From: Sphaerolaimus hirsutus
Lineage: Eukaryota; Nematoda; Chromadorea; Monhysterida; Sphaerolaimidae
DNA: 64,000 bases
Direction of reading: 5' to 3'
Assembly: GCA_964036195.1 (NCBI GenBank)
Contig: OZ038456.1
Coordinates: 1,674,001 to 1,738,000, forward strand
Position numbers and translations under genes: made by a program. Shown here one piece after another: positions 3,162 to 64,000 of the stretch (the first letter of the stretch is position 1; every line of letters begins with the position of its first letter). The notes under the pieces were generated by a model. The model was not told the origin of the DNA, made no database searches, and saw only the letters and a list, made by a program, of their open reading frames with translations.

Positions 3162-3353
3162 GTGGCAGTCCCAAGCCCTGTAAAGTGTAAAGTAAAGTGT
3201 CAAATGTAAAGTCTAATGCAATGTAAACTGTCAATTGTCATGCAAAGTTCAGTAATAAAATCTTTTCTTTTTTGTTTTGATTGACACTTTACTTTGCATT
3301 TGACTTTACATTTGACACTTAACTTTACACTTTACAGGGCTTGGGACTGCCCC
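3162..3353. mobile_element. Family D element, intergenic copy
   Basis: Palindrome beginning GTGGCAGTCCCAAGCCCTG, flanked by CAG at 3159-3161 and 3354-3356. This fixes the family's ends and 3-bp duplication independently of the receptor intron. Confidence 0.82.
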
Positions 3354-4049: not shown

Positions 4050-4222
4050 GGGTCAGTCTCAGACCCTATAAAATGTCAAATGTCATTCAAAGTGTCCAAA
4101 GTCATGTAAAATGCCCGGTAAAGTGGCAAAACGCCATTTTATTGGCCATTTTACATGACTTTTGACACTTTGCATGGCATTTGATATTTTACAGGGCATT
4201 TTACAGGGTCTGGGACTGACAC
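4050..4222. mobile_element. Family D element
   Basis: Same core as the intronic copy (AGACCCTATAAAATGTC and complement). Ends diverged; duplication not clear. Confidence 0.72.
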
Positions 4223-10870: not shown

Positions 10871-11909
10871 TGTAGTAATTAATTGTACACATTTTGTTTT
10901 TTTTTCCAGTTTATTTTGTAGTGAGTTCAATCAACTAGTACGCTTAGCAGTGCAGGAGGCATAGGGGATTTTGAGGGTATTATTTTAGGGGGGGGGGGGG
11001 TCTGCCCCCGAGCACGTGCTAATAACTAAGGAACGGCTTGGTAGAAAATGTTGAAATTTTGATATATTATGGTTTCAGGTCGGGGCTAATTACAAGTCCG
11101 AGGAAATTTTGCTACGACACCCCTGACTGGAGATAGGGTGTATGGCAGGAGGGCGCCCGTGTGTCTGCACTACATGAAAAAATCTCTCATTATGAGCGCA
11201 AATATAAAGAAAATTTAATTTTGACAAACAGAAATTCAAAAATGATAATTTTTCCCAAAAAAATTTTTTTTTTTTTTGGGGGGGGGGGTTTAGAATAGAA
11301 CAGTTGGCAAAAAAATAAAAAAATTGTGAATAGTTTATAAATTTTTGGAACATTTTAGTTGGCATGTAAGTGCAAGGAAAATAAACGCACTGTGGTGGAA
11401 AAAATAAGGTAAAAATTAAAAATGAGTGAAGACATACAGCACCAGTTTGAAAGCTGTTGCGCTACATTCTTAAACACAATTACAATTGGAAAGTTTCAAA
11501 ACTTATATAGAAAACATTTAAAAACTCAAAATTTTATTAAAAGTTTATAAATTTCGAAATTCAAAAATGCTACAGGAATAATTCAAAAATGCAGAAATTA
11601 ATTGAAGGAAAACACTTGAAAATTAAAATAAATAAATTTTCATGCAGTTTCCCATCGTTATCTGCATTCTGGCGCCCCTCTGTCTGCATTCAAGAAAACC
11701 CAGACTGCAGTCTTACATTATCTTCAATTCCTCCATTATTGCATGCAATCAGCACAATGCATTATTTATGTAAAAAGGTGTTGAATTTTTGTTGCCCGAC
11801 GCATTTTTTCGCGGGTAACCCGATTTATTTACTTTTCGGGCCGCGCTAAATCGACATTTACCGCGCTAAATATAATCACTGATAAAATTAATCGGGTGTC
11901 GCTCCCAGA
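10871..11909. other. No gene; G-type fragments
   Basis: Long T and G runs (11267-11290) and AAATTCAAAAATG tracts as in family G; one G-type end near 11655. Confidence 0.45.
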
Positions 11910-12052
11910 CCGGACCGTTCGAAATGCCTTGTAAAATATAAAATGTCATGCAAAGTGCCAAAAGTCATGTAAAATTCCCCGTAGAATGGCATTGCATGAC
12001 TTTTGACACTTTGCATGACACTTGACACTTTACAGGTTCCGGGAATGGCCCC
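11910..12052. mobile_element. Family D element, degraded
   Basis: Palindromic AAAATGTCATGCAAAGTGCC core with altered ends (CTCCCAGACCGG / CCGGGAATGGCCCC). Confidence 0.6.
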
Positions 12053-12255: not shown

Positions 12256-12513
12256 TTGAATACCCCCATTGAATACCCCTCGAATACCCCCATTGAATAC
12301 CCCTCGAATACCCCCATTGAATACCCCTCGAATACCCCCATTGAATACCCCTCGAATACCCCCATTGAATACCCCTCGAATACCCCCATTGAATACCCCT
12401 CGAATACCCCCATTGAATACCCCTCGAATACCCCCATTGAATACCCCTCGAATACCCCCATTGAATACCCCTCGAATACCCCCATTGAATACCCCTCGAA
12501 TACCCCCATTGAA
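12256..12513. repeat. 24-bp tandem array GAATACCCCCATTGAATACC
   Basis: Nearly 11 perfect copies of a 24-bp unit (the named 20 bases plus CCTC). Divisible by 3, so long chance frames appear on both strands (MGVFEGYS and NTPIEYPS repeats). Flanks hold degenerate copies (12210-12255). The unit resembles family A vocabulary (CTCGAATACCCCC), so it may be an expanded A fragment. Confidence 0.9.
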
Positions 12514-14564: not shown

Positions 14565-14781
14565 GTGCCATGTAAAAGACCCTTTAAAGTGTCAAGTGTA
14601 TCCTACTATTATTTTAGTGTATCCAAATCTTATGTTTTTTGTATCCAAACCTGACACATGACATTTTACAGGGTCGATTACATGACACATGACATTTTAC
14701 AGGGTCTTTAACATGAGACATGACATTTTACAGGGTCTTTTACACTTTACAGAGTCTTTTTACAATGTCTGGGAGTGGCAC
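14565..14781. mobile_element. Family D element
   Basis: Ends GTGCCATG and TGGCAC, with CTG flanking on both sides (14562-14564, 14782-14784). Body repeats ACATGACATTTTACAGGGTC, plus a short ATCCAAATCTTATG motif shared with the copies at 40215 and 56893. Confidence 0.75.
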
Positions 14782-19952: not shown

Positions 19953-20130
19953 GTGGCAGTCCCAAGTCCTGTAAAGTGTAAAGTAAAGTGTCAAATGTTA
20001 AATCAAATGCAAAGTAAACTGTCAATTGGCAGGCAAAGTTCAGTAAAAAAAATTTTTCTTTTTGTTTTGATTGATACTTTACTTTGCATTTCACTTTACA
20101 TTTGACACCTTAATTTACACAATTTACAAC
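19953..20130. mobile_element. Family D element, right end decayed
   Basis: Begins GTGGCAGTCCCAAGTCCTG; arms of AAGTAAAGTGTCAAATG. The right side runs into ATTTACAACTTACAC repeats and lacks a clean terminus. Confidence 0.65.
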
Positions 20131-36574: not shown

Positions 36575-37190
36575 GCGGCCCACACACTACTAGTTGACAT
36601 CGCTGTGCGACACGTGAAGCCGAAATTTGAGTTGACACAACCCAGTTGACACAACACTGTTGACACAACACAGTTGACAAAACCCAGTTGACACAACACA
36701 GTTGACTAAACCCAGTTGACACAACTCAGTTGACACAGCCCAGTTGACACAACACATTTGACACAACCCAGTTGACACAACCCAGTTGACATAACCCAAT
36801 TGCCACAACCTAGTTGACACAACCCAGTTGCCACAACCTAGTTGACACAACCCAGTTGACACAACACCTATGACACAACCCAGTTGACACAACACAGTTG
36901 AAACAACCCAGTTGACACAACCCAGTTGACATAACCCAGTTGCCACAACCCAGTTGACACAACCCAGTTGACACAACCCAGTTGCCACAACCTGGTTGAC
37001 ACAACCCAGTTGACACAACACAGTTGACACAACACAGTTGACACAACCCAGTTGACACAACCCAATTGACACAGCCCAGTTGACACAACTCAGTTGACAC
37101 AACCCAGTTGACATAACCCAGTTGCCACAACCTAGTTGAAACAACCCAGTTGACACACATTTGTCAACTAGTGTGTGGGCCGCCGATGGG
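36575..37190. mobile_element. Family J element carrying a 15-bp tandem array
   Basis: GGCGGCCCACACACTA and TAGTGTGTGGGCCGCC ends with GTTGACA just inside. The interior is almost all 15-bp CAGTTGACACAACCC repeats (36630-37165). Confidence 0.8.
36630..37165. repeat. 15-bp tandem array CAGTTGACACAACCC
   Basis: More than 30 units with variants (ACAC/CCAC/AACACAG), higher-order groups visible. Since 15 is a multiple of 3, all minus-strand frames stay open and read CQLGCVNWVVSTG-like chance peptide. Confidence 0.88.
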
Positions 37191-37961
37191 GGCAGCGCTG
37201 CACAATGCAAATGTCTACATGTTTAACTGTTTGTGAGCTGTCTTGGAAATCTATCAATCAGTGTATTCTAAATACTTAGCAGTGCATTTTGGCTGGCACT
37301 TGCTTCTAACGGGGCACGTTTGACCGCAGGGGAGGGCAGATTGGCTGCAGTGATTTCACAATTTCATGTCAAAATTTTCATGGCCCAGCAAAGTTTTGAT
37401 GGCTGGATATTTTTCAAGTGTGTACTCTATTGGGACTAGAAAATACTGACATTTCTCCGAACTCAGGCTCGGGATTATAAATAAGTCAAGTTATTTGGTG
37501 ATAGTCAAGTGACAATTAACAAGTATTTTACTGACACTTTTGCTTTTTTTAGGCTGTCATTGACCAATGCCTTATTTCTTCTAATAGGAGAGCACCATCC
37601 TATTTTTTTCAAGCTTTCACTTGCCGTTCTATTGAATGTGGCGTTCTATTGGAGGTGTCGTTGTGTTGGAGGCTGCCATTCTATTGTTACACAAATTTGT
37701 TCACACTTTTTTTCATTTTAATATTGTTTTGTTTGAATTGCGGATCTTATCAAGGTTGTTTACTTAAAAAAAAAATATACATCTTCTAACACAACGTTTC
37801 CAACTCTTGAATCGTCCTTGCGCACCATCAATTTTCGGCATATTTTTGTGACTGCTTGGCACTCTTCCAAAATAATTTCCACTTACCTTCTAATATTATG
37901 TACCGTATGTACCGAGCTTTTCAGATATACTGTAAGAAAAAACGTACTTTTAATAAACATA

Positions 37962-39274: not shown

Positions 39275-40214
39275 TGCTTCATGAATGATACAAAACGCTA
39301 TTTGTCCAGAAAAATATGCAAAATAATATGCCCCAGCTCCGGACAGACACATTTATTGTAGGTTGCTAGTCAGACATTAAGAATTTAAGAAACAAAATAT
39401 TTTAACGAAACCAAACTACCTATTTACAAGAACATATCTGTAATTTAGTCTTTTGTAGATATTCAAAATCAAATCAGTCATCTGTTCATTGTAATTAACA
39501 TTGAAAAATCATCAATTTTCCGGAAAAATAAATAAATATAATCTCTTAAAAAATATGATCACACCCCATCAGAAAAAAATAATTACATATAATCTCAAAA
39601 AAAGATGATCACACCCCTTTCCAAAAAGCAGGAAAAAATATAAATAAATATAAATACTTTTCAGAGATTTTCTAATATTTTTAAGCAGCTCAGAAACCAT
39701 CTCACAAAAATATAGGTAAACTAATGAAATATCATTGGAAAATCTTGAATAAAAAAAATAAATTTATTTTGATACATTTTTATATTTTTCAATGCTAATT
39801 ATGATTGTGTTATCGTGCTAAGGGCCAAGGCGTTACATAAAATTGCGCCATCCTTTAAATACTGGAGTAGGTATTTGTGTGATCTGTGGCTGCTGTAAGG
39901 AACTCATTTGTCAAGTGGCATGCACCTATCACTTCTAGGTGACCTTTTTAAGATCTATTTCAGTTTTTTCATTGATATAAATAAATTTTATTCTTAAGTA
40001 AGAGAGAAACATTCAGAGATTAGATAGAACAGGCGTTTTTTTCATTTTTACATTTAATATACCTACCTATCTTACTTTATAACATATTTTCCATGTATGG
40101 AAGTTTCCTGGAAGTTATACGGTAATTAACTGCTCCCCCCTGGACGGCATAACGCTTTTTGTTATTCTTGCAAGCATTTAGTTACAAAAAGAACTATGAT
40201 CCCAGTAGTAAGCC
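39275..40214. other. No gene; very AT-rich spacer
   Basis: Two copies of AAAAATATGATCACACCCC-like words at 39548-39615; nothing else. Confidence 0.45.
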
Positions 40215-40440
40215 ACCAGGGGGCACTCCCACACCCTGTAAAATACCCTGTTAAGTGTAAAAGACCCTGTAAATTGTCATGTGTCATGTAAAAAAACCTC
40301 TAAAATGTCATGTGACATGTAAAAGACCCTGTAAGTGTCAATAGTCATGTAAAAGACCATGTGAAGTGTCATGCGTATCCAAATCTCATTTAATCGTATC
40401 CAATTCGTATGTTTTTGTATCCAATTCTTATGTCAAAAGG
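40215..40440. mobile_element. Family D element, partial
   Basis: Begins GGGGCACTCCCACACCCTG after CCAG; tandem TAAAAGACCCTGT and ATCCAAATCTTATG units. No right end found. Confidence 0.6.
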
Positions 40441-40928
40441 TAAGTACGAGTACGAAAATACATGATGATTTGATTTCGTTCCAGCTTCCAGCCGCCATCT
40501 TGCTAATAATGAGCTTGACCTAACAAAATTTCAATAAACTATAAAATAATTTTGAGGATTTCGGCTTAAATAGTTCCGCCGCTTGCAGCTTTTGCTCCCA
40601 TTAGACCAAGTACATTCTGAATTGAATTATGGATTATCCCTAGGAATTACAGAGCTTCCAAGGCAAAAGGCTCCGGCTACCATGAGTTTGGTCAGTTGTG
40701 TCAATGGGGGGGGGCATTCGGGGGTCTCCAAGATTTTAACCCTCGGGGGGTTGGATAGATAGCTGAGCGGCCTCTGGGATAGATTTGGCGGTTGGGGGGT
40801 AACCTTCCCCCCATTGGAGACCTCTGGGGGGGATTATTCAAATTGATTAGTTGCGATGGCGTGTTGATTGTAAAATCAGCCGTAAGTCGGGATAATGGCC
40901 CTACACAGTACTCAAACTAGTTGATAAC

Positions 40929-47947: not shown

Positions 47948-49546
47948 TTTGAAAGCTTGTAACATCAATAAAAACGCTCAAAACGCATCTTATTAAGTTA
48001 AGTAGCTATTCTAAATTAAGCTTTTTTGTTTTTCTCAGTTAGGTATTTCGGTTACACTGCCACACCATCCAAAAAATCACAAGACAAAAATGTGCGCATG
48101 ATAATAATGCCAGGAAGTGTAGTGCGTCACAAACATGCCACATAAATACCCGCACTGCAGTCTCAGATAAAAAACACCAGGCTCCATTTTTTATTCCACA
48201 AGCTAAATACTCTACTTCCCCGTAATACCCCCAGGGGTAATTTTTTATAGTGCAAATTTTGAGGGGATATTTTGAGAAAAGCGGTTTTAAAACGAGTTTA
48301 AAAAAATAAAAGCGGTAAAAAAAATAAAAGCGGTTTTAAAAAGAGCGCTGGCTGGACATCCCCTCCCTACATACTTATTATTCCACCCCCTACGCAGGCA
48401 AAATAACCCCCGTTAGGGCACAATGCCCTACCCCCTGCCCCCGGGGGAGCCCAGCCAAGGCGCCGCCGAACTCACCAACGCAAACTACAGTAACCCGCTG
48501 AATAATTTCGCTTTGGTTGGAGGGTCGGCCACTCAGAGTTCTAGTTTGCCAGTTTTTAGTGGTTAGTGTTGCCGTTTGGTTGTTTTTTGTTGAGCTTTAG
48601 GATTTGATGTAGGGCTCAAACGAGACCGCGGTCGCGGTACATGGTTCGGCGAATAGTTTGCACTGGGGCGGTCCCGGTTCCGACACCCCGGTCCCGGTCC
48701 CGGTCCCGACATTGGAGAATTTCTAGACCCGGTCCAAAAAACTGGTCCCGTTTGAACCCTAATTTAATGGATTGGATTTCGGACGAGATGATTCACTCAA
48801 TGATGTTGACATCTGGTATAAATATTTACGTATGTGAAAAAATCTATTTTTGTGTTTTTCTAGTGGTGAAAAAAAAATTCGGGAACTCAAATCGAGACGA
48901 AAAAAATTCTAATACATTTTCGAATTTTCGGAATATGTTTTCGGAGCCTACTTTTCCACCGAAATTCAAAAAAATTTAACAACGCAAATTTTAGCATTGA
49001 ACGCATTTGAGTTTATTACAGTGGTTGACGGACGCCTCATTCCAGTGAACTTAAATGCCTTTAAAGTTGTTTTATGCGTTTTCTAAATTCTTTTCTTAGA
49101 AGTTTCTATAGAAAACCATTTCGGTGTTTCTGGGTCATTACAGGGCCATTATGCATTCTATGTTCTTTTTCAGCCACACACGAAAATGCACTTCTGCACC
49201 AAATTTTAGAGGATCTACGCGTTAATTTCAGTGCGTACAGAACCAAATTGAAAATGTCAGATACTACGACAGCCGCAGCCATGTGTGTATATTTTTTTCA
49301 GATTGTGATTTTTGAGTATTATCTGATCAGATTTCTACGCTTTGATTTTTATTGAATGAGCAATGTGACTAGAAAAAACCTGACTTTAGAATTTCTAAAA
49401 CCGGTCGCCCAAATGTTCTTGTTTGATAAATATGACGTCAGAATTTTAGAACCCAATTACAGTGATTAAATTTAAATTAAATTAAATTTCTAATTGAAGA
49501 ATATTCCAGCACCTGAAAAAATCCCATAACAATGTCATTTTTTCAG
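47948..49546. other. Sequence upstream of the receptor start
   Basis: Contains an A fragment (48205-48290) and a CGGTCCCGGT repeat (48613-48770). 49074-49355 is open for 93 codons with no recognisable protein. The promoter and 5' leader of the receptor could lie here or further left. Confidence 0.4.
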
Positions 49547-49788
49547 CATGGTAACCAATATATCTACGAGCACTTTTACTGACCAAATCACATCCACTAC
49601 AATGGAAGAAAATCAGGAAAGCGGTGAATTTTGGCACATTGCCATCACTGTGCTTTTTGGCACCGTTTTGGCATTGCTCACCTCTGGGGGCAATTTATTG
49701 GTGATGTTTAGTATGAAAATCGACAAGAAATTGCAGACTATTAGCAATTATTTTTTATTTTCTCTCGCCATTGCCGACGTGACTATTG
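49547..49788 (+). CDS. Receptor exon 1: N-terminus, TM1, TM2 start
   Basis: The ATG at 49548 lies two bases after a strong acceptor (TTTTTTCAG, ending 49546). The 5' leader is therefore joined by cis-splicing, or by spliced-leader trans-splicing if this is a nematode. The short extracellular N-terminus has an N-glycosylation site (NIS) near residue 4. TM1 covers about residues 27-50 with the conserved GN. The exon ends in TM2 (LAIADVTI) with one base left over before GTTGGT. Confidence 0.9.
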
Positions 49789-52700
49789 GTTGGTGATTTT
49801 TTGGGGTATTTTTTTATGCGGAATTGTTCTTGTGGGCTTGCAAAAAAAGATGTACCTAGGTAGATCGTTTTGAAAATGCTTTGAAATATGATTTTGTAAT
49901 GTCTAGAATTGTATATACTGTATTTACACGAAAAATTCTCCTGGGAAATTATTTTGCATAGGACTTTTTGTTGGGTTTCAATTCACCTCACGAAATTGGC
50001 ACAAAAAAAAACGAAACTTTTTTGTTCAAATCGGACACAATAAATTGATCATATTCTTAAACATCATATCCATCAACATCAGCCGGGAGGGGGGGGGGAT
50101 TCAAGTGGGAGGGGGGAATTATTCAAGCAAACACTGTAAATAAGTATATACATCCACACACCCCCCCCCCCCCCCTAGGTCTAATCTCGATCCCCCTGAT
50201 GACCGTGTACACTGCGATGAGCTCGTGGGAGCTGGGCTACTTCATGTGCCAGCTGTGGCTGTGCGTCGACTATCTCATGTCCAATGCGAGCGTGCTCAAT
50301 CTCTTGCTCATCAGCTTTGATAGGTTAGGGGGGTTGGGGGGTTTGGGGGGTTGTGATTGTGATTTTTTGAGGGGTAAGTGTTTTTTGTATTTATTTACCT
50401 ACCTAGGTGAAGGAGTTAAGTGAATGGCGTAAATCCTAGGATGAGTCAGTCTCGAACGACTCCTCACTTTGAATACCCTAAATTTTCGAATAAGACCCCA
50501 GGGGAGTGATTTTTTTATCAGAAGTTTTTAAGAGGGAGTTATTCAAGAGGGGGGGTTATTCGAGGGGGGTTATTTGTTTCTCACCTCGCCAACAGGGGGT
50601 GTTATTCAATGGGAGTCTTATTCAAGCATTTGCGGTAACTCTTCTATGTTTGTTGAGTCGGTAAAATATACTGCCCCCCTCTTTGATGGGTGGGAAAGTC
50701 GTCACGTCGCATGCATAAAAATACTTTTTATGTAAATGATTAATTGTGTGTTCTGCAGGGACCGTCCCGAGGGACTTATCCACGATTTTTTAGCGATAAG
50801 GGACAGATATTTTTGTTACACAAGTTTTTTTTTTTCTGCACACAGATACTTTTCGGTGACCCGGCCGCTCACTTACCGCCCCAGACGGACGACTAAAAAA
50901 GCACTCACAATGATCGCTTCCACTTACATAATTTCCGTTCTGCTGTGGCCCCCTTGGATTGTCTCCTGGCCGTATATTGAAGGTTTTTTTCATTTTGAAC
51001 AATAATTTTTTCTTGAGTAAGCCCTGAAAATACTGTAGTCGATAGTGAGCCCAGAAAAGTACCGTATTACAGAATGTTGTAATTCTTCTCAGAATGTATT
51101 TTCCCGTCATGAACGGGGTTCAATGAAAGGGGTTCTTAGAGGCCATTATATGAATAAATAAGTTTATTGCTTTTTTAGGTATGCCCTTCTATTAAATAGA
51201 AGAAGTACGGTATTTCAGAACATACCGTATTTCCTCGAAATACCCTCAGGGTTTTTTCAGAGTGAGAATTTTGAGGGGGGTTAAACGAGGGGGGTATTTC
51301 GAGGGGGTTTATAAACTCATAGTGTCCATTTTGAGGAGGGTATTTCGAGGGGGGTTTATAGACTCAAAGTGTCAATTTTGAGGGGGGGGGGGTATTTCGA
51401 GGGGGGTTTAAAAACTCATAGTGTCCATTTTGAAGGGGGGGGGGGGTATTTCGAGGATATACAGTATGTGAAAAAGCTGACTACCCCCTATCACAGGTCG
51501 ATTTGCGGTGCAATCAAATGAATGCATGGTGCAATTTATCAAGACTAATGCAGTTGCCACCATAGGCACCGCGTTGGCAGCTTTTTACTTACCCGTGGCC
51601 ATTATGGTATTTTTGTACGCCAGGTGAGTGCTTTTGTTATTTGTGGGCTTAGAATCGTGCAGTTACTGTAGGAACAAAGGGCGTGCCGCAGTGGCTGCTA
51701 TTTTTCTATGATAAACCATAACAGGAGTGCATCTCCAGCAGTATAGTCTACTATCGGAAAGCCTTACGATGAAATCTACCATATTCCATCTGAATAAAGA
51801 AGCAGACGTTGAATTATGTCCCAGGACATTGATCCCACTTTTGGTTAATTTGATGCACAATTTCTTATGTGACTTTATTCATCAAAATATGGTATCCTTG
51901 ATGGTATTTATAGCGCTATGTCCGTTCAGTATACTACGTTTTCATGAAACCAGCTGATTCACAATCACCGTCCCGCTAATTACCTACAAACAGTGCAACT
52001 TTACCGCACCGTGAACGAAGTTTACCGTACTGATCCCCACCGGCACCGTATTATCCGCCCCAACAAATTTCCCGCGCCACCGCGCAGAGTCTACCGGGTG
52101 ACCAAAGTGCGCCAGCGGGAGTTCGCGAAAATGACCGCCTCCGGTCAGACTAGCCAGTCCGGTCCGGCGAAAGCCGGTACCGGTACCGGTTCCGGTTCCA
52201 ACAAGTCTCGGTCGACTGTGTTGACCATTGGTCAACACAGCGTCGTGGCCGCTAGGAGTGAGAGATACGCTGGCGCGGCGCCAAGTGGCCCCAGGAAGGT
52301 TGACTTTGGGCTTGGATTTTGATGGCTTGTGTTTTACGGTTCTTGGTTTTATGGCCGAGTTTCGGACATGTTAATGGCGTTTTTAAAAACACGGCGATCA
52401 AAAAAACAGTCTGCTTCAGCCATTGTTAGCGCCAGTTCCGCAAATTGAAAAGTGAGAAGTAAAATCGCAAAAGCGAAGTGAATTGAGAAGTAAAATCGCA
52501 AAAGCGATATGAATTGAGAAGTAAAATGGCAAAAGCGAAGAGAAATTACTTTTTATTTTTTATTTTTACTTCGATATTGCCAATTCAGTTGCCGTTTCAC
52601 TTCGCCTTTGCCATTTCACTTCTCACTTCTCATTTTGCGGAACTGGGGCCAGTTCCGCAAGTGGAAAAGTTAAGAGTTCAAATTTAAGAGTTGAGTAAAA

Positions 52701-55700
52701 TGACAAATGACAAGTTATGAGTAAAGTTAAGAGTTAAGAGTTGAGTAAAACGACAAATGATTTTACTCAACTCTTCACTATTAACTTTACTCTTAACTTA
52801 TCATTTATCATTTTACTCAACTCTTAAGTTTTAACTCTTACCTTTTCCACTTGTGGAACCGGCACCTGGTCCCAGATCTATGGTGTCTGCTATTTTAGCA
52901 CTGTGGGGGTCTAAGTGGGTTGTCTGAAAAACATGTATTTATTGCATTTCGATGCACACGCCACGCGCCCAATCTTTTAACGATAATTCCCGCCTTCTTT
53001 GTTGACAACTGCCGATTTCGCGCTTTGTCCCGCTATAAATATATTTATAAAAGCTGACAAACGTAATTAAGCAAAATGATAAGCGATAAAAACAAAATTT
53101 TCAGCGACCTTACTCGACACCTTTCTTATCACTTTTTCCCGTCACATCTAAAAAAATGCAAAAAAAACAAACAAACAAAAAACCCTTTTCTCATCACTTC
53201 TTCCCGTCACATCTAAAAAAATGCAAAAAAAAATATAAAAAACCCGCCCCGCCCTACCCAGACCTCAGTGGCCCTATCGCCCGACGACGGAAACTGCGGC
53301 GGGTCGCTGAACAACGGCTTGCATGGAGGGCATTTAGGGCGGCCCGCCCGCAAGGGGTCTCTGGTGGCCTTGGTTAGGCAACCCCCGGGGAGTAGTAGAA
53401 GGACGTTGGTTTGAGTTTGAGAGTGATTTTTTTTTGCTTTTTGTGTGTTTGTTTATACCGGATGTCTTCGATATACACCGCTCGAAATACTCCCCCCCTC
53501 CCCGAAATACCCCTCCCCCTCAAAATGGACACTGAGTTTAGCACCCCCCCTCGAAATATCCCCCCAAACTGAGTGTAAAGAGAACCTCAATGTATTTAGC
53601 GTAAATGAAGTATTTTATCATTCATTCTATAGCTGTCAGCGGGATGTGAAGATGACTCATACCGTATTTCTTCTAATAGAACGGCATGCCTCCAATAGAA
53701 CTGCAGGTTTTGGCACTGTTTATCACCCACGACAAAAATAGAACGGCACCTCCAATAGAATGACTCCAAAACGTTGAAAATAGAACGGCACCTCCAATAG
53801 AATGACTCCAAAACGTTGATGACAAAAATAGAACGATAGAAGAAGTCTTCTATTAGAAAAAAAACGGTAACTTATATTCTTCCAACATTTTATTTAAAAA
53901 ATTTCTCGCTCCCCCAATCCTCTCAAAACCAACCAATCAACCCCCCAACTTCCCTTGGCACACTGCCAGGTCGCATTCATCGTGGTCGTCGCCGCCGTGC
54001 AGTCGCACCAACAGCAAATTGGTCCGCTTCGCAAGGGGAGACGCGCAGCAACGCCACGGAGCCTGCCAGCCTGACCAGGGGAGTCAGGCTCACGTGCTGG
54101 CGCCTGACCAGATGGATGATGGTTGGTGGGGGGGGGGGTTCTAGAAGGGGTGGTTTTTGGAAATATACATACCGTATTTGCTTGAATATACCCCCTCCTC
54201 GAATAATCCTCCCTCAAAAAAGTCTGACGGAATAATAATCCCCCAGGGGGATTATTTGAGCAAATACGGTACTTAAATATAATCTCAGAAAATCTCTCAA
54301 AGGTTCAAATTAAATTGAATCTCTATGAAAAACGCAGAGAAAATAAAAAGTAAATATAAAAATATAAATGAGAAAAATTCGCATAAAATAAATATCATTA
54401 AGTGTCTCCGGAAAAACTGGGAGAAAATGTGAATAAACTCGGCAGACATGAAAGGAATCAGTGATTCGGCCCTTACGTACCAATTTTTAATTTCGTTAAA
54501 ATTGTTAAGTTTATTTTGAATTTTAATGAATGCATTCCAATCGATTCATGGTAAATCTTATTCAATCCGACGTTTTATGCGAGAACAGGATAAACTGGAC
54601 ACGCATATTGTCATATGAAAGCAGATAACAAGGTATTTTATTGTAACAGTCCGGACAAATTCCAACAAAAAAGTACGTATGTGTGCGTGCGATAGAACAA
54701 GGGAAGAACGACCCTGTACACTGTACACCACTAGCGAAATCTGGATCGTTTTGAAAATCTAAAAAATGCTCTGAATAACATAAAATGCTCACTATGTTCG
54801 TAATAATAAGAAATTATCGTATATATATATAAAGTGTAGATCTTAAATTCAAATTTCGACAGTGACGTTCACTTATCTAATTGAAAAATTTGTTGATGGT
54901 CACCCCTACGCATGAAATACGAGTGTCAATAACAATGAAATTGGGTTCGAATGGCACTTGTACAAAAATTCGTTAGACCATTGACTCGCATAATGTCTGC
55001 CGAGTTTACCTACCTAAATATAATATTTTTTCTACCTACCTAATAACCTACCTACCTATGTCTTCCTAGAATACCTACCTATTTATGTCTCCCAAGATTT
55101 TTAGAATGCTAAGTCGGACATGCGGGGCCCCGCATTTGTGACTAACGTCGAAAAACATCAGGGATATTTGTATGTAAAAATATCAGAAAATAAAAAAATA
55201 TCAAATCAATATTTATTTATATTTTCTCTGGCTTTTCTAAGAAAAATAAAATTGAGGCGTCCAATTCTAAAAGTCGACAAAAATGTTCTCAAAAAGTGCA
55301 CAAAGTCGACAAGTCTATTTCCCTCCCCAAAACAGTTTTGCTCTGACCAAACGGAATTTTATGGACACCCCATTTTTCACATATAGGTCGAGAGCAGGGG
55401 CTGAAAATTTGACACTTTATTGTCAACATGTACAACTTACCGTATGGCCCTGAGTGTAACTCCCCCAATTATAGTGCCCGGGGCACTATACATTGCAAAA
55501 AGTTCCAATGGCCCTACACACACTAGTTTTCACCGTGACCGATGTGAAAACTGAAATGGCCACATGGCGACATCCAGCCTACTCTTTTTGTATGCTTTAT
55601 GTGCTTTAGTTTTCAAATTTTCAAAGTTCAACTTTCATTAAATCAAATTCAAATTTAATTTAAATAAAATCGTTCAACCGTGTTCATTAATTTGCATTTG

Positions 55701-58700
55701 AAAAAAATTCAGTTTTCACACATGTCACGGTGAAAACTAGTGTGTGTAGGGCCAATAGTCCATTAACCCCCCAGGAAATTCCATCGGGCCGATCCACGAG
55801 ACAGACGAGCAGTGTGCCGAGTGCCTAGCGGAACTGCGCCGCGGCGACACGCTGCCGCCAGTTTCAGGCACGGCTGTGGTGCCTACAATTTTAAGGCCCC
55901 TGGCTGCGGTCTGGTTCTGTTTGAGGTCCCTTGTGGATAGGTTGGTGGATTGTGATTTTTGACTGGGGGGGGGGGGGTTGTGATGGTGTGATGTAAATAG
56001 GTGTTAGGTTGGGAGGGATATAAGATCCTATTCAATACCGAATGTGAGGCTGTGAGATTAGCGTTCCAAGAATCGGTGATTTTGAAAAAATATTTATATA
56101 TATATTTTCACAAAATCTCTCAAAAATAAAATTATATTTAATCTACCTGAAAATATTAATGATTTTTTTATATTTTCTTCACATAAACTAAATATAATAT
56201 AATCTCTCTGAAAAACTCGGGAAAAAAACATAAATAAATTTTATTTTATTTAAAAATGTATAAATTTCCCTAGATATTTTGAACGCCAAGTGAGACATTT
56301 ATTGCCAAGTGAATTTTTTACGCAATAATAATTTAAAATGTAAATTAATTTATTTACTTAATTCAATCCCTTCCCATCCCAGAATCTTCACACGCCAGCG
56401 GTACCCCAGGGGGGCATCTAGCTGCGGCGGCGGGTTCACAGCCACGAGCGCCGCGTGCGACTGCCACCAGGTGCCAGTCCCAGACCCTGTAAAATGTCCT
56501 GTAAAATGTCAAATGTCATGCAAAGTGTCAAAAGTCATGTAAAATGCCCTGCAAAATGTCAAATGTCATGCAAACTGTCAAAAGTCATGTCAAATGCACT
56601 GTAAAATGTCAAATGTCATGCAAAGTGTCAAAAGTCATGTAAAATGTCCTGTAACGTGTCAAACGTTTGCCATTTTGCAGTGCATTTTACGTGACTTTTG
56701 ACACTTTGCATGACATTTGACATTTTACATGGCATTTTACAGGGTCTGTGACTGCCACCAGGACGCGAACTTGCTCAGCCCCGTCGACGCGGGCACCAAG
56801 CTGGCGCACATGCACGCCCCAGCCGAGCAGCCCTTGTTGTTGCAGGTAATTTTTGTTTTGATGTTGTTTTTAGGGTAAGGCTAAGTGAAGTAGGGGGCAG
56901 TCCCAAACCCTGTAAAGTGTAAAGTAAAGTGTCAAATGTAAAGTCAAATGCGAAGTAAACTGTCAAATGCAAAGTAAAGTGTCAAATGTAAATAAAGTCA
57001 AATGCAAAGTACAATGTCAAATGTAAAGTAGTGTCAAATCTAATTTTTTGTATCCAAATCTTATGTCAAAATGTATGATTTGGATATAAAAACATAAGAT
57101 TTGGATACACATTTGACACTTTACTTTGCATTTGACTTTACATTTGACACTTTACTTTGCATTTGATACTTTACTTTGCATTTGTCTTTACATTTGACAC
57201 TTTACGTTACACTTTACAGGGCTTGGGATTGCCACCTGGGATCCCATTGTGTAGTAGTTGGTTGAACTCATATTCGGTGGACATCACACTATTATGGAAA
57301 CCTACCATAACCCATCTGAATATGGCACCAGAAATTATACAGTTTTTCATAATTATTTTTCGTTTTTACTATGGATGGAGTAATGTACACTATCGTGCAG
57401 AATAGTTGAGACTTTTCACACATGAGAAACAGTAGGCTGGGGGTCCACCGCATTTTTTTGCTTCCCAATTTCTTGTCCCTTGTCCAATTTTGGTGCCATT
57501 TGAGTATGTTGGGGTTTGATGCTGTGGCTACTACGAAAAAAATTTGTTTGCTCAAATAATCCCCAGGCCCGAGATAAGGGGGGTCTATAAAAAGATGGTC
57601 AATAAATATACAAAAAATGGGCAATCTGGATGAGTGTCTTTGAAGCTTAATAACTCAACCATTTCTGGGCTGATTTGAATCATTCAACACTTAAAATGCT
57701 CGGGACAACCTGCAGATTCTATTTTTGTGGTCAGTTTAGTGATGTCTAAATTCCGTATGTCGATTTGACCCAGTTTTTGAACATGAAAAAATAATTTTTT
57801 TGAATATGCTCTCATATTCTTTAGACAATGAGGATTCATTTAAAACAAAAATGAGTTCAATATCTCTTTCCAATCAAAAGTGATGGCACTTCAAAGTTTT
57901 CAATGGTGTCTAAATATTTTACGCTTATTTTACTAGGGTTTGCAGCATGTAAATTTTGTTATTGAACAGTCTATAACATACTTAAGACAGAGAGAATTAA
58001 TATGACAAAAACATTTTTCAATATCTCGTTCCAATCAAAAGTTATAGCACTTACAAACTTACATCTACATTCCATCCAAAATAATTGCACATTACTCATT
58101 CACAGTTGGGCCAACTTTTCTCCCTAATAGAGCAAAGCCAAAACCTCAAATTTACACACCAAATAGCCCCACTCAGTAGTATGCCTACCCCCATTTCTGA
58201 GTTGTTGGCTATGGATGCAAAACTGCAGCAAAAAATAAATAAATGCCACATTTCCATATATGCTTTGCCATATGCTGTTCATGCTTAGAATGTTTCTTGC
58301 TGCACACAGAGCTCAGCGATGCAGGCAAGCAGTTGCCATGGTGAAAAATTTGTTAAAAAATGAATGTATGAATTGGATATAGACTGTAAAGTGAGATACT
58401 GGGTGGCTACTGCCCAAAACAAGAAAAGTCTCAACTATTCTGAAACATGAAAAAACTGAGTTAATATGTTTGGGCACTAGGAATATACACAGATGTGAAC
58501 TCGGGGGGCGGTCATCCCGGGCATGTGTAGTCAACCCCCCAGGGTACCCATGTATAGTAAACTCGACGGACATTATGGAAGTCAATGCTCTACGGGATTT
58601 TCGTACAACTGCGTATATTCGTAGTTGGCACTCATCCAAGTTACCGTTTGAGAGAATGTTACCCAGTATGAAAGATGCAGGATTTCCGTCTGCGTCACCA

Positions 58701-61700
58701 AAAATGGCTGCGGAATGCGATTAAGCGAACGCAATTGGTCGCTAATGGCGGCGCACACACGAGTTGACACACATGTTGATTTAATTGGATACCGCGGTCA
58801 TTTTTGTTGACGAGAGCGGAAATCTAGCGTCTTTTACCTCATTCGTATTCAACGCAAAGGTAACTTGGATGCACTGGGAAGTTCATACGTTCTTTTTTGA
58901 AGGAATTCGTCGAGACTGTGACGATAAGATCCGACCTAAGACCTTACAATCTGACTTTCTATAACGATTTGTTGGATAGAATCAAAAGTATCGTGAACCG
59001 AATGGAATCCGTCCATTCAAGTTCGAATTAAAAAAGATACGTCATTGGTAACCAAGGGCCGAATACCTGATTCGTTTCATGTCTGCCGAGTTTATCCAAA
59101 TGTTTTGCATATCAACCATTTCAAAATTCTGGCAACATAAATCATGCAGCACAAAAAGTCTCAACTATTCTGCACGGTAGTGTATTACGAATTTTATCAC
59201 AAGATTTTTTCATTAATTTATGGTAGGATTCTGCACAAAAATTTGCGGTCCGCCCAGTATACTACAAAATTTTTGTAGCAAGTTTAATCAATTAGGTACT
59301 ACAATTGGTCGATTTAACTAAATATGGCCCAAAAAGCGAAGAAAACTTGTGCAGTACGGAACATGTTCAGGGAGTGAATAAGTTTTTAGGTAATTTGGGA
59401 CATTTAATTTCACTTAAAGTCAAACAAAAATCAGTGAGGACGTTTTCACCCACCGAACTACATAAACTTATCCCCCCCTCTGTGCAGTTTCCAGACTGGA
59501 TACTTTTATATACTACATAATTGGTAAGAAAAGTACTCGAGTATTCTGAATTACATTCAACCCATAAAGTACCCGATGCTCGATACCCACGAGTACAAAA
59601 GTACCCGATACTCAATACCCAAACCTCACCCAAATTCCCCACAGGAGGAACCCGACGACTCCTGCAAATCGAGTCCCAGTTCGAATGCGCGAATGCGCTC
59701 ATCCACAAACAACTACGGAATTGGCAACGATCCAAAAATGCAGCACCACGAAAATGATCAGAAAAAAGTGTCTCCCAATGTGGAGCACCATGTAAAAGGG
59801 CGGGTGCACAGGGCCGTGGCGCCTGTGAACAGCGGTACCACTGATTTGACCACTGGAACTGAAGGAAGTGGTTCCGTGTTTGATCCTGGTGAGTGGTTTG
59901 GTTACTTTGGGGCTAATTAAGCACTTTGTAAAGTGCCCTGTTAAGTGACAAATTTCTGATTATGCGCACTTCGAGGTAAAAGGTCTGTTTACAGTGAACC
60001 AAATGGCAACTGAAAGTAAATTTGCCCAGTTTACATATTTTCTGAAATTTGAAACTTTGACTGACATTTGTCACTAGCGACTAGAGTACTTTAACAATAT
60101 TCGGTGTACAAAAGTTTGATTTCATTGGAGATTCGCGTTGTTTGCATTAGTCAATTAAAGTTTCTGTGCTATACATAACTGGAAAAGAAATTATTTTTCA
60201 GCGTGGGATTGTGAAAGCGGTACCTTTACCGTATACCGTATTTCCTCGAAATACCCCCCGGGGGTGATTGTTTCATAGTGGTCCCGAGAGGGGGGGGGTT
60301 AAACGAGGGGGGTATTTCGAGGGGGGGGGTTATTATTTAACAAGAAAATTTTCGAAAACCAAGTACGAAATTGTCGTCTGAAACGTACGCAGACGTCGAA
60401 AAATGCAACAAAAACCGCCATTTATAAGGTTCTGTAGACTAATATTAGTATGTAGGTGGTATGTACACTGTTCTAACGTGACACCGACATTGTTTTAACG
60501 TGTGTTCTGCAGTACACAGAACACAAACTACAGTTATTGTCATGTACGTTCCCTTTACACTCAATTTGGGGGGGGGGTATTTCGAGGGGGGGTGATTGTT
60601 TCATAGTGGTCTCGAGAGGGGGGGGGGTATTTCGAGGAAATACGGTATTCTAAACTAGCCGTCCTTGAACAAATCCCTAGTATCCCCCGGGGATTTAGAG
60701 GGGGATGGGTAGTGTTGGGAAAAATCCAAAATAATCCACATACCGTATTTCCTCGAATTACACACAGGGGGTTTATTTTTTCAGAGTGGAAACTTTGAGT
60801 GGGGGTTTTTCGAGGGGGATATTATTTCGCCAGAAATTTGCGTAAATGTCGTAGTAAAGAATGGGCTTTTACATACCTAAAACTGGTAATAAACGTCACC
60901 AAACAGAACGTATTAGAGCATACAAATGTAGAGGGCTATACAATACAAACTACTCAATGGATAGCTACGATGAGATTTGGCCCCAATAAATATTATACAT
61001 CATGTACATTGTATACACGATGTACCTCATTCAAAAGGGGGGGGGGATATTTCGAGAGGGGGGGGGGTATTTTTTCCTCAGCTCCGAAACAGCATTTAGG
61101 CCCATCATGCCCATTCTCATTCATAGCTAATTCTACCCATTATGCATCTAGACCGATTACTCACGAGTACTCGGCGCAGGGCCGTATCCAGGGGGGGGCG
61201 GGGGGGGGGGGGGGGCTGCAGCCCCCCCCCCTCCCGGGCTGAGACAAAAAAGTGACCGGAAAATGGCACTTCTTCAACGTCAGCGTAAAAAAATTTTGCG
61301 CGCAGGCGCGCATTTTTCACCAGACGTGATGTATTATCTACAGATTTGCTCCCTGTGGCCGAAATCGTTACAAAATTACTCAATTGTGTGCTGTTTGCTG
61401 TATTTGTATGTATATTTACATACATATACAGCGTTCCAAGGCGCTGGTGCCATGGCGTTGCGCCTACTAATGGCGCCAGCGCCATGGCGCCATTCCGCCA
61501 CTGTATACGTAAAATGTTAGGGGGGGGCTGAGCCCCCCCCCCCCCCGCTCGCTGGCCTCCGTAAACTAACAGCCCCCCCGCTCGAAAATTCTGGATACGT
61601 CCCTGACTCGGCGGAGCGCAAAGTATGCGCCCAAAATTATTTATGTCTCTTGGTCGATAACGCGCAAGCTGGACACTTATGTATGCACTTTCACAAAAAA

Positions 61701-63490
61701 GAAAAATATTTTTTAAAGAAAAAGGCGGAGTCGCGTACAAATAAGGAATGTTTGTTCCCATCATGTTTTTTCTTTTTTGCTGGAATTATTTTTATTTTAT
61801 TTAGGATGACGTCATGATGGAGTGTTTCCTACAGAAAAATGCATAGCATGCGGTCCACCGAGTATACAGTAAAAACAGTAGTTACGAGTAAAAATTATTT
61901 ATGTGTATGTTTACTTTTAAAAAAGTTCAGTACTTTGAACCACTCTGGTTAGATGCATAATTTGTCTCGATGCATAATGGGTAGAATTAGGTGCATGATG
62001 GGCCTAGATGCATAATCGGTTTAGATGCATAATGAGTCCTACTCGTTTATTCAAGGGGGGGGGGTATTTCGAGCAAATACGGTAATCTCAAACCCCCAGT
62101 CACAGGTCTACTTTCACCGCAATATGGCTCAATCCGCAAACGGACAAATTCCACATTATCACAAAGACGCAGGGCTTCAGCCATGGATTTGACCAGAGAA
62201 ATGGTGGCTGAATTGCAGGCTGAATTGAGAGCGCATAGAATGGCCTTGATCGCCAGGGAAAGTGGCAATGTTCCTGGTTGGTTTTTGGTTTGGTGGCTGA
62301 TTGATGGCAAACTGCCTGAAAAGTTGTTTTAATTGTTACCTTTTTGTATAATATTCGTAAGAAGCATTTTCGAATTTTCGAATTTTTACAAAAATAAACT
62401 ATTTCTGATTGAGTGGCTAGACGACTGTCTAGCAAAATCAATTAGTCTTCAACTGATCTTCGACTCATTAATAATTCAAATTTCGAATTTAGCTTTCGAA
62501 ATTTCGAATTTTTGAATCTTTTTGGGTAGTCTTCGACTTTTTGGCAGTTTTCCTATTTTTCAATAGTTTTTGAATTTTCAAATTTTTTTGTCATCGTTAC
62601 TCAGTGGTCTTCCTGTAATATCTATCACCTTGTAAATTGTAATATCACCCTGTAAATTGTAATATCACCCGAGGTATTCACGAAATGGCGCCATGGCCTT
62701 GGCGCCATTCGATTTTTAGCGCCCAGCGCCATTTCAACGACATATACGGCAGTGATTACCCTCACGACTGGCGCCATTTGGCTCGGTGCCCATTTTGTGC
62801 AAAATCAAATTTTTCCATTCTCGCAGGCCATTGCGTGGCCGATGGGCAACTGCACGATGGCGCACGTGCGCAGCACAAACAGCAGGCTATTGTCAGAAAA
62901 ATGGTCCACACTGACATTGATTGTAAGTGACTGTTTTTGTTACAGAGAAATTGGGTTGGAATATTTGGAGGAATCTACTTTAAGCCGAAGTTACAGCATA
63001 ACGGTGATACGACAAATAAAACGTCACCATTAAATCCATTATTTTCATGTTTACTAGTTTTTTAGTGAAAATTAATGTTCAATACTCGAATTTGGATGAA
63101 AAAATTTTCATATGGGAGATGTTAAATTCGAATTTGAATGAAAAACTTTCGATGAAAAATGGTCCGCCGACAAATCAATTTCACGGTGATGCCCTAAAAT
63201 CAATTTGTCGTGTTTCGTTTCGATGGAGTGTTTCGTTCGAAAAAAAATGCATAGCATTCGGTCCGAGGAGTATTTATATCCGTTCCTACTTCTCTAGTCA
63301 CTTTTCCACTTGTCCACGGCCCCTGCTGTATTATTCTCAAATTTCGGTAAATAATAAATATGCAAATGATAAAACTACTTTTGCAGGCAATGAACAAGTG
63401 TCTCCAAACAGTAAACAAGCAGCATCAAACAATAAAACCTACACAGTTCTCATACAACTGGATAGTGTCAGCAGTGCTCACTCCACTAGT
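49548..63490 (+). CDS. gar-3: Muscarinic acetylcholine receptor-like GPCR, 14 exons, 3' end beyond window
   Basis: Rhodopsin-class receptor, most like invertebrate muscarinic receptor GAR-3; by family it couples acetylcholine to G proteins at the plasma membrane. Exons: 49548-49788, 50179-50323, 50846-50982, 51497-51623, 52088-52298, 53262-53404, 53970-54121, 55775-55940, 56383-56470, 56762-56845, 59645-59888, 62106-62276, 62827-62922, 63387-about 63490. All introns are GT-AG and every junction phase matches. Visible: TM1 with GN, TM2 with LAIAD, the TM3 ligand aspartate in [13 protein letters not shown] at the exon 2/3 join, WPPW in TM4, and AAFYLP in TM5. The third cytoplasmic loop begins [10 protein letters not shown] and exceeds 450 residues. 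It ends in TYTVLIQLD, a motif I recall in the same loop of GAR-3 and vertebrate M receptors. TM6, TM7 and the stop are not in the window. The TM exons are secure; exons 6-13 rest on phase continuity and composition. Confidence 0.88.
49917..50138. mobile_element. Family C-like element in receptor intron 1
   Basis: ACTGTATTTACACGAAAAAT to TTATTCAAGCAAACACTGTA. Intron 2 has a similar one at about 50470-50639 (TTCGAATAAGACCCC to CTTATTCAAGCATTTGC). Confidence 0.6.
50179..50323 (+). CDS. Receptor exon 2: end of TM2, TM3 to the Arg of DRY
   Basis: Begins with two bases that complete the split Gly codon. It encodes the rest of TM2, the TM3 cysteine for the extracellular disulfide (MCQLW), the amine-binding aspartate (CVDY) and [15 protein letters not shown]. 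The acceptor is preceded by a run of 15 C and TAG. The exon ends inside the Arg codon of DRY, two bases left over. Confidence 0.93.
50846..50982 (+). CDS. Receptor exon 3: DRY tail, second cytoplasmic loop, TM4
   Basis: Starts with A, completing Arg, then [19 protein letters not shown] (intracellular loop 2) and TM4 with [13 protein letters not shown]. This is the segment most like muscarinic receptors in general and GAR-3 in particular. It ends one base into a Gly codon. Confidence 0.93.
51060..51211. mobile_element. Family B-like element in receptor intron 3
   Basis: TACCGTATTACAGAATGTTG to TAGAAGAAGTACGGTA; followed within 12 bp by the A element at 51223-51466. Confidence 0.6.
51223..51466. 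mobile_element. Family A element in receptor intron 3
   Basis: TACCGTATTTCCTCGAAATA to CGAGGATATACAGTA; internal triplication of AACTCATAGTGTCCATTTTG units. Ends 30 bp before exon 4. Confidence 0.78.
51497..51623 (+). CDS. Receptor exon 4: second extracellular loop and TM5
   Basis: Encodes [18 protein letters not shown] (loop cysteine that pairs with TM3) and TM5 with [18 protein letters not shown]. The donor is a consensus AG|GTGAGT, leaving two bases of the next Arg codon. Confidence 0.93.
52088..52298 (+). CDS. Receptor exon 5: start of third cytoplasmic loop
   Basis: One base completes Arg, then [15 protein letters not shown], the TM5/loop junction that contacts G protein in this family. 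A low-complexity Gly/Thr/Ser stretch follows. The acceptor GCGCAG is the only one nearby giving both phase and homology. The donor AAG|GTTGAC is inferred; the frame stops soon after at 52321. Confidence 0.85.
52431..52865. mobile_element. Two family E elements, end to end, in receptor intron 5
   Basis: 52431-52648 (AGTTCCGCAAATTGAAAAG arms) abuts 52646-52865 (AGTTCCGCAAGTGGAAAAG arms). The joint GGAACTGGGGCCAGTTCC is itself a palindrome, so the second inserted at or beside the end of the first. Both fill most of intron 5 and carry no gene. Confidence 0.75.
53262..53404 (+). CDS. Receptor exon 6: third-loop segment (inferred)
   Basis: GC-rich open segment after CTACCCAG, phase 0, reading [10 protein letters not shown] onward to SSRR. 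The chosen donor AC|GTTGGT leaves two bases and matches the GTTGGT donors of exons 1, 7, 8 and 12. No homology recognised; the support is phase, splice sites and composition. Confidence 0.65.
53660..53869. mobile_element. Family B element in receptor intron 6
   Basis: TACCGTATTTCTTCTAATAG to AAAAAACGGTA, with four ATAGAACGGCACCTCCAATA units. Confidence 0.75.
53970..54121 (+). CDS. Receptor exon 7: third-loop segment (inferred)
   Basis: Follows ACTGCCAG. One base completes the previous codon, then [20 protein letters not shown] and a Gln/Asp-rich stretch. Open for 50 codons in a GC-rich island; the other two frames are not consistent with the neighbours. Ends at GATG|GTTGGT. Confidence 0.68.
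54170..54271. mobile_element. Family C element, 102 bp, in receptor intron 7
   Basis: TACCGTATTTGCTTGAATAT to TTTGAGCAAATACGGTA. Minimal, near-perfect palindrome. Confidence 0.75.
54434..55008. mobile_element. Element V, copy 1, in receptor intron 7
   Basis: TAAACTCGGCAGACATGAAA to AATGTCTGCCGAGTTTA, 575 bp. Shares CAGTGATTCGGCCCTTACG and TTAAATTCGAACTTGAA-type words with copy 2, inverted. Confidence 0.72.
55252..55427 (+). repeat. S repeat, internally deleted, in receptor intron 7
   Basis: Same start, end and TTCCCTCCCCAAAACAGTTT segment as the 47437 copy. Confidence 0.7.
55511..55753. mobile_element. Family J element in receptor intron 7
   Basis: GGCCCTACACACACTAGTTT and complement, AAT on both sides. 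Ends about 20 bp before exon 8. Confidence 0.8.
55775..55940 (+). CDS. Receptor exon 8: third-loop segment (inferred)
   Basis: Follows CCCCCCAG directly after a J-family element. The two opening bases restore Gly, then [20 protein letters not shown] and a Pro/Val-rich part. Donor GATAG|GTTGGT at 55940; GAG|GTCCCT at 55925 has the same phase and is a possible alternative. Confidence 0.68.
56383..56470 (+). CDS. Receptor exon 9, left of the transposon-derived intron
   Basis: Follows CCCATCCCAG. The first base completes Arg, then [18 protein letters not shown] to DCHQ, ending phase 0 at CAG|GTGCCA. Reading on without splicing enters the family-D element and stops. The last 12 bases (GACTGCCACCAG) are identical to the 12 bases just before exon 10. 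Confidence 0.68.
56471..56758. mobile_element. Family D element forming intron 9 of the receptor
   Basis: Ends GTGCCAGTCCCAGACCCTG and its near-complement (17 of 19 match). Body of palindromic AAATGTCATGCAAAGTGTC repeats. CAG at 56468-56470 is repeated at 56759-56761 as target duplication. The element plus one CAG equals the intron exactly. No internal gene. Confidence 0.85.
56762..56845 (+). CDS. Receptor exon 10, right of the transposon-derived intron
   Basis: 28 codons, phase 0 at both ends: [20 protein letters not shown] to LLLQ, then donor CAG|GTAATT. Composition matches exon 9, from which it is separated only by the D element. Exons 9 and 10 look like one ancestral exon split by insertion. 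Confidence 0.68.
56893..57235. mobile_element. Family D element in receptor intron 10
   Basis: Ends GGGGCAGTCCC and GGGATTGCCAC; long AAGTAAAGTGTCAAATG arms and a central ATCCAAATCTTATG palindrome. Lies 47 bp after exon 10, so two D copies sit within 800 bp in this gene. Confidence 0.72.
57388..59182. mobile_element. Tc1/mariner-like element U in receptor intron 10
   Basis: 1795 bp. Ends CACTATCGTGCAGAATAGTT and CTATTCTGCACGGTAGTG, flanked by TA (57386-57387, 59183-59184). It interrupts a T element. No transposase frame survives that I recognise; it contains V copy 2. Confidence 0.78.
58558..59094. mobile_element. Element V, copy 2, nested in U
   Basis: TAAACTCGACGGACATTATG to TTTCATGTCTGCCGAGTTTA. 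Third layer of the stack V in U in T within one intron. Confidence 0.72.
59645..59888 (+). CDS. Receptor exon 11: third-loop segment
   Basis: 81 codons plus one base after TTCCCCACAG, starting [20 protein letters not shown]; Ser/Asn-rich and hydrophilic, as expected for this loop. The donor CCTG|GTGAGT is consensus. The phase matches exon 10 across a 2.8-kb intron loaded with transposons. Confidence 0.75.
60234..60647. mobile_element. Family A element in receptor intron 11
   Basis: TACCGTATTTCCTCGAAATA to CGAGGAAATACGGTA; full-length type, colinear with 712 and 10199 (inverted). Confidence 0.8.
60741..61080. mobile_element. Family A element, right end lost
   Basis: TACCGTATTTCCTCGAATTA, core TACATCATGTACATTG as in the 4942 copy. 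Confidence 0.65.
61177..61605. mobile_element. hAT-like element X, long copy, TSD ACTCGGCG
   Basis: 429 bp, ends CAGGGCCGTATCCAGG and CTGGATACGTCCCTG, perfect duplication ACTCGGCG at 61169-61176 and 61606-61613. It carries a GGCGCCATGGCGCC-type block. It landed in the end of a T-type element. Confidence 0.9.
61606..61866. mobile_element. T-type element split from its left end by X
   Basis: ACTCGGCGGAGCGCAAAGTA to GGTCCACCGAGTATAC. The interior shares AAATTATTTATGTC and TCGATAACGCG with 5335-5410 and 12670-12760, a T subtype. Confidence 0.62.
62106..62276 (+). CDS. Receptor exon 12: third-loop segment
   Basis: Two bases complete Gly, then [20 protein letters not shown] and a helical, charged stretch ([18 protein letters not shown]) that could form a short coiled coil. 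RRRAS is a plausible basophilic kinase site. Ends CCTG|GTTGGT, one base left over. Confidence 0.75.
62338..62597. mobile_element. G-related fragment
   Basis: TTCGAATTTTCG-rich stretch ending GTCATCGTTA, after exon 12 in intron 12. Left terminus not found. Similar G-type ends occur at about 11650-11660 and 46718-46731 without a traceable partner. Confidence 0.5.
62827..62922 (+). CDS. Receptor exon 13: third-loop segment
   Basis: Acceptor TTCTCGCAG; two bases complete Gly, then [20 protein letters not shown] to HTDID. Donor T|GTAAGT is consensus. His/Gln-rich; phases agree with exons 12 and 14. Confidence 0.75.
63387..63490 (+). CDS. Receptor exon 14: distal third loop with TYTVLIQLD motif
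   Basis: Acceptor TTTTGCAG. The codon split with exon 13 becomes Cys, then [20 protein letters not shown] and [23 protein letters not shown] matches a short conserved motif in this loop of muscarinic receptors, which ties the distal exons to the TM exons. The donor is uncertain: several GT within 63460-63490 are usable, and the frame stays open past them. Confidence 0.75.
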
Positions 63491-63549
63491 CTGTTTTTTT
63501 GTGTTTTTGGAGCTGTTTTTTCTACAAAATTTTTTTTCCATTTAGATAC

Positions 63550-63861
63550 TTATCGTATATACTCGAATAATCCCCCTGGGTACTTATTTTTTTGTGAAAC
63601 TTTTTTTTTTTTGGGGGGGGGGGGGGGTTATTCGAAGTGGGGAATTATTATTCCGTCAAAAAATTTATGGACTGATTTCATGAAACATGCTTTTTTACCA
63701 AATAACATGTAATTTTAGTTCAAATTAGATGCAAAAACTATATCACATGCCTTAAGGGGGGTTTATACAAGGGGGAATTATTTTTTAATCACTCATCGAA
63801 GAGGGGGGATTTATTCAAGGGGGAATAATTCAAGGCGGGGGAATTATTCGAGTATATACTA
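63550..63861. mobile_element. Family C element after receptor exon 14
   Basis: TATCGTATATACTCGAATAA to TTCGAGTATATACTATG, with long T and G runs. Confidence 0.65.
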
Positions 63862-64000
63862 TGTCATTTCTAAAATTCAAATTTCATTGGGCGCATTTTG
63901 CTTCCATATTTTATCGTCAATAATATTATTCATTCATATTTTTACACGAAAATCAATGATATTGCATTTTTGTAAAACTACAACTATTCGGGGGGGGGGG

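Follow-up and report, generated by a model that had tools for sequence, protein, structure and literature searches.

Where animals acquire new introns from is still unsettled, and intron 9 of a predicted receptor gene raises the question at a single locus: was this intron created by a transposon that jumped into an exon? The gene lies in a 64-kb stretch of DNA (the window), and the earlier note on this DNA had claimed that intron 9 is exactly one element, with the element's own GT as the donor and the duplicated CAG as the acceptor. The first claim proved true, and the second was borne out for the predicted sites in the sequence. The gap between exons E9 and E10 plainly is one element plus CAG: a 288-bp palindromic MITE (copy I9) and one copy of the duplicated CAG fill the 291 nt from 56471 to 56761, with nothing further. 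The order is the E9 end GACTGCCACCAG, a predicted splice boundary, the element from GTGCCAGTCCC to GACTGCCAC (288 bp), then CAG, the second predicted boundary and GACGCG, the start of E10; thus, both element boundaries are both predicted splice boundaries (Table 1). Introns of the I9 type would start with GTGNCAGTC and end with GACTGNCACCAG.

The intron carries both parts of the signature of DNA transposition, TIR and TSD. The arms of I9 measure 100 nt and are 91% complementary; when aligned, they differ at eight of 96 positions. The direct repeat around I9 extends over 12 bp, as the exon side repeats nine element-end bases beyond the CAG (nine of nine bases examined). The inverted-repeat score of the intron ends was 49, and the other 12 introns of the model scored 5-10, within the ranges of their shuffles; intron 9 is the only one of the 13 with inverted ends and also the shortest, and no second introner was recognised among the introns of the receptor gene by this measure.

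The host gene, on the + strand, looks like a muscarinic acetylcholine receptor gene. TM1-TM5 are encoded by E1-E4 and the start of E5, and the third intracellular loop by E5-E14; TM6-7 are absent from the gene model, and none were found within the 64-kb window. E1-E5 matched the Pfam family 7tm_1 (E 3.3e-43). Among 60 solved-structure matches listed of 755, rows 1-31 (one of them a chimera) were all muscarinic receptors. The protein search with the receptor scored 7993 candidates, 669 of them at E <= 0.001, and the top ten among the matches listed were nematode proteins with 60-72% identity over 31-40% of the query. In two trees (31 and 16 rows), the receptor grouped with the nematode rows against the arthropod rows with 100/100 support; in the 16-row tree, a branch just outside the nematodes was not rejected (p-AU 0.059). 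The tree rows were drawn from the 120 listed protein matches, a set not known to include tardigrades, horsehair worms, priapulids or other ecdysozoan phyla.

The exon ends were chosen by hand with the reading frame in view. E7-E13 form an unbroken phase chain in this model, and the uncertain 3' ends are those of E6 and E14. The E6 donor, GGG/GTCTCT (slash, splice boundary), scores -4.3 and was picked to preserve the frame; an earlier placement of this end was rejected because it breaks the frame, and E6 has no contact with E8-E11. One base 5' of the receptor start codon, at 49538-49546, TTTTTTCAG was noticed as a possible trans-splice acceptor, a feature that suits nematodes. Neither Rfam families (at gathering score) nor tRNAs were detected within the window.

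Table 1. Features of the receptor locus, the MITE family and a further repeat, in positions of the window.
Feature	Position	Strand	Remarks
Receptor gene, exons E1-E14	49548..63446	+	hand-built model; predicted
E9	56383..56470	+	88 nt, start phase 2, end phase 0 in CAG
E9 end GACTGCCACCAG	56459..56470	+	12-base repeat of element right end + CAG
First CAG of target duplication	56468..56470	+	retained as final exon bases
MITE copy I9	56471..56758	+	288 bp, palindromic; terminal GTG is the predicted 5' splice site
Second CAG of target duplication	56759..56761	+	gives AG of predicted 3' splice site
E10	56762..56845	+	84 nt, starts and ends in phase 0, GC3 27/28
Copy A	3162..3353	+	flanked left and right by CAG; one end GTG, the other GGG; no gene noted alongside
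Copy B	4050..4222	+	closest to I9, 86% over 163 columns; flanks GGA, CAA; duplication not seen
Copy E	11896..12051	+	flanks CGG, CTG
Copy G	14565..14781	+	flanked left and right by CTG (reads CAG on - strand); both ends GTG
Copy C	19953..20128	+	right end not found
Copy D	40220..40442	+	right end not found; left flank GCCACCAG; GGG end
Copy F	56894..57235	+	within intron 10, 48 nt past E10; passenger, no intron alone
GCCAC(CAG) flanks	40208-40219, 12052-12063, 56459-56470		
ACCGTATTTCCTCGAAATACCCCC repeat copies, examples	4945-5320, 51220-51465, 60230-60650, 62060-62085		

Eight copies of the family (A, B, C, D, E, F, G and I9) were found in the 64 kb by a blast search of the window with four copies and by reading of the ends. 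They are short, have no long reading frame, bear inverted ends and occur in multiple copies, as is usual for MITEs. The TIR pattern, with up to two mismatches allowed, matched the window nine times, with none expected from shuffles. The right end of copy E (12051) was set by its fit to the other ends, with 12052 as the alternative; the left end of copy G was placed by eye, 20 nt outside the blast match; and a 60-bp match at 52446-52505 was left out of the copy count. The GTG start and CAG duplication claimed earlier for copy A were found as described, and its other end is GGG. One exact pattern of the element end gave no matches in either of two public sets, viral_contigs and genome_contigs, which says little because these sets hold only viruses and bacteria/archaea. 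The flank of copy B at 3962-4049 has a GC content of 0.62 and open frames on the - strand and is possibly an exon of some gene; no exon was recognised in it.

The flanks of the family point to a CWG target. Nine of 14 scorable family ends abut CWG, and after exclusion of I9 this holds for seven of 12 (binomial p 1.5e-8; triplet frequency in the window 3.0%), or for six of 12 (p 5.7e-7) when the right end of copy E is set at 12052. As the two ends of one copy are not independent, the count was also made per copy, again without I9: CWG stands at one end or both in five of seven copies (p 1.4e-5), and in four of seven with E left uncounted (p 3.7e-4). Identical CWG pairs flank three of the six two-ended copies (A with CAG, G with CTG, I9 with CAG), and do not flank B, E or F. 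The TWA duplication of canonical PIF/Harbinger elements was seen at none of the 14 ends. The element itself ends in GTG in nine of 14 cases and in GGG in five; four of the six two-ended copies (A, B, E, F) have one end of each kind, and G and I9 have GTG twice. Beyond the CAG, GCCAC mirrors the element end at three of 14 ends (D, E and I9) against 0.014 expected from uniform bases, a pattern that was spotted first and tested afterwards and that is reduced to two ends without the adjusted end of E. These flanks suggest that insertion prefers targets resembling the element end, e.g., GCCACCAG. Some Harbinger elements have a palindromic target around CACCWGG.

Our preferred explanation, which we regard as probable, is a gain of the introner type, in which the MITE inserted into a single 172-nt exon and is now spliced out. 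In this scenario, a non-autonomous MITE would land at a CAG in that exon and the transposase would duplicate the CAG. The terminal GTG, directly behind the first CAG, would then form the 5' splice site CAG/GTG and the second CAG the 3' splice site, and the spliceosome would remove exactly the element and the duplication, restoring the old message in any reading frame. Since the intron equals element plus duplication to the base, it was probably created by a transposon jump, and its origin by insertion into an exon, which we infer to have been whole beforehand, is well supported.

The weighing of other explanations begins with the exons. Were E9 and E10 not exonic, the element would merely lie in a larger E8-E11 intron beside GC-rich non-coding DNA, a reading that we consider unlikely. 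No homologue that would speak for the exons of the variable third loop was found: a protein search with the spliced stretch from the E7 end to the E12 start gave 170 candidates, none at E <= 10. Moreover, the gene model is hand-built and predicted, and five of 15 GC-rich islands in 49000-64000 overlap no exon (ten do), but four of these five contain G or C runs of 9-16, and the longest runs in the E9 and E10 islands are 6 and 4. The earlier note was also right that the flanks are GC-rich and join in frame and that the unspliced frame stops: the flanks have GC contents of 0.69 and 0.68 vs 0.39 for the element, and two of three frames are open in the joined exons and none in the unspliced stretch, with stops in every + frame of I9. 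The 172 joined bases staying open are not special alone; in a control with five other copies, the joined flanks had one open + frame in A and one in F, and two open - frames in B and one in F, with none on either strand in E and G. Against non-exonic flanks stands the agreement in phase from E7 to E13. The end of E8 (phase 2) and the start of E11 (phase 0) both pick the same one of the two open frames (the other is frame 2), although this agreement is not fully independent because the frame was taken into account when the exons were drawn by hand. In the chosen frame, E9 has a GC3 of 25/29 (p 0.016) and E10 one of 27/28 (p 0.0002, both from base shuffles), and in both exons the other two frames give lower values. 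Along the receptor gene, GC3 points to coding sequence only in places: p fell below 0.05 in four of the 14 exons (E1, E2, E9 and E10) and was 0.09-0.25 in E3-E8 and 0.34-0.91 in E11-E14. The AG before E9 and the GT after E10 lie in contexts resembling the other splice sites of the gene. E9 and E10 are the shortest exons barring E14, whose end is not set, and joined they measure 172 nt, with the other eleven at 95-244 nt. We took E9 and E10 as coding on the combined evidence of frame, GC3, splice-site position and GC islands, which point the same way.

With E9 and E10 accepted as exons, the insertion could nevertheless be spliced poorly or not at all, and the locus would then be an allele truncating the receptor ahead of TM6-7, as would any retained intron 9 with its stops in all frames; we judge this reading rather unlikely. 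Scored with matrices built from the other 12 introns of the model, the donor of intron 9 is weak (0.4; 25% of all GT sites equal or exceed it), and the acceptor GACTGCCACCAG outscores approximately 91% of the AG sites across the gene region. With 30 nt on each side, the RNA of intron 9 has a predicted folding energy of -174.8 kcal/mol (z -16.7; none of 100 shuffles was as good), and in the predicted fold the 5' and 3' sites base-pair with each other at the hairpin foot. So stable a hairpin over both sites could hinder splicing and, together with the weak donor, suggests that splicing is possibly incomplete. On the other hand, CAG/GT and CAG/ stand exactly at the positions needed, the frame is open from E10 to E13 of the model, and the differences between the arms indicate a copy that is not brand new, if the arms began alike, in a flanking frame that is still intact. 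We regard splicing of intron 9 at the predicted sites as likely. It is very improbable that an old intron took in the element and later shed all of its own bases. Copy F does show that a member of the family can land inside an intron, yet it retains the 48 nt of intron 10 on one side and more than 2 kb on the other, and at intron 9 two deletions would be required, both ending precisely at the element ends and leaving CAG on both sides.

The rule stated earlier for the whole family needs correction. That rule takes the donor from the element's GT at the left and the acceptor from the duplicated CAG, and holds that either orientation works because the ends are inverted repeats. The predicted splice sites do arise in this way at I9, but across the family splicing would require both that the target read CAG in the sense strand and that the 5' end be GTG. 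Either orientation would do for I9 and G, which have GTG at both ends; copies A, B, E and F, which combine GTG and GGG, would not work both ways. Since the duplication is CWG, an insertion should be spliceable only on the strand that reads CAG; copy G, for instance, is predicted to be able to splice on the - strand only. With CAG/GTG as donor and the second CAG as acceptor, two bases would decide intron formation. As predicted from the sequence, a T at the second position of the element end makes a donor and a G does not, and an A in the middle of the target, on the sense strand, makes an acceptor and a T does not. If GGG is the original end of the family, as is usual in NuwaI elements, GTG may be the step that turned it into an intron maker. 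In the one gene model examined, the family yields one of 13 introns. A family with a splicing outcome predictable from two bases would make the transposon route directly testable, through intron counts and RNA from a single genome.

Both the intron and the element family have counterparts among described systems. The available sections of the introner survey of Gozashti et al. (2022, PMC9860276) report only two groups with introners among animals and land plants, both of them animals, with copepods named. Intron 9 resembles the introners described there in that an element with TIR and TSD spans the intron end to end, and it resembles the class in their Fig. 2C in that the element brings the 5' site and the duplication gives the other (PMC9860276). 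It differs from the Fig. 2C example, Chrysochromulina, with its 4-bp TSD and no TIR, in having a 3-bp CWG duplication and a palindrome over its full length; and unlike the introners in these sections of the survey, it is so far one such intron in the one gene model examined, in a receptor that groups with nematodes (PMC9860276). The CWG duplication fits the NuwaI group of the PHIS superfamily (Harbinger-like). As far as the available text of PMC4482050 goes, NuwaI elements have a CWG duplication and TIRs that usually start with GGG, and their hosts are 12 bony fish, a beetle, a crustacean, a mollusc and an anthozoan, a nematode not being listed in that text. The present family shares with them the CWG duplication and an animal host; its ends start with GGG in five of 14 cases and with GTG, the form that would make a splice donor, in nine, and its host groups with nematodes (PMC4482050). 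Autonomous elements of the NuwaI type carry a DDE transposase and a Myb/SANT protein; no transposase was noticed here. For Caenorhabditis, the accessible part of a 2022 study of 104 nematodes states that source sequences were not found for intron gains (PMC9169325).

What is apparently new here is the host group; the mechanism was already known. No title on a nematode introner was retrieved by the literature search, which covered few subscription journals and preprints. In the tunicate Fritillaria, Henriet et al. reportedly described in 2019 MITE-like introns that derive from short inverted-repeat elements and are largely non-canonical; an origin from such an element in an animal is shared with I9, which differs in its canonical, predicted GT-AG sites. 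We tentatively propose, as a possibility that we still find doubtful, that a nematode or close kin carries a NuwaI-derived introner family in which the change of GGG to GTG was the donor step and the A or T of CWG sets the strand of the intron. If true, intron formation by this family would follow a two-base code that can be read from the DNA, in a phylum without identified sources of new introns.

Several other repeats were seen in the window. The - strand at 21659-30406 holds one open frame of 2915 codons, which resembles a BEL/Pao-type retrotransposon with gag, protease, reverse transcriptase, integrase and an envelope-like end. Large inverted repeats at 52639-52872 and 6194-7009 have a common TTCCGCAAGTGGA end and apparently represent another MITE family. 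Several copies of a repeat centred on ACCGTATTTCCTCGAAATACCCCC and containing extended stretches of G or C were noticed by eye in introns and elsewhere. Finally, the tandem repeats at 12135-12546 and 36590-37222 form long repetitive open frames, with units that are GIQWGYSR-like and, on the - strand, CQLGCVNWVVST-like.
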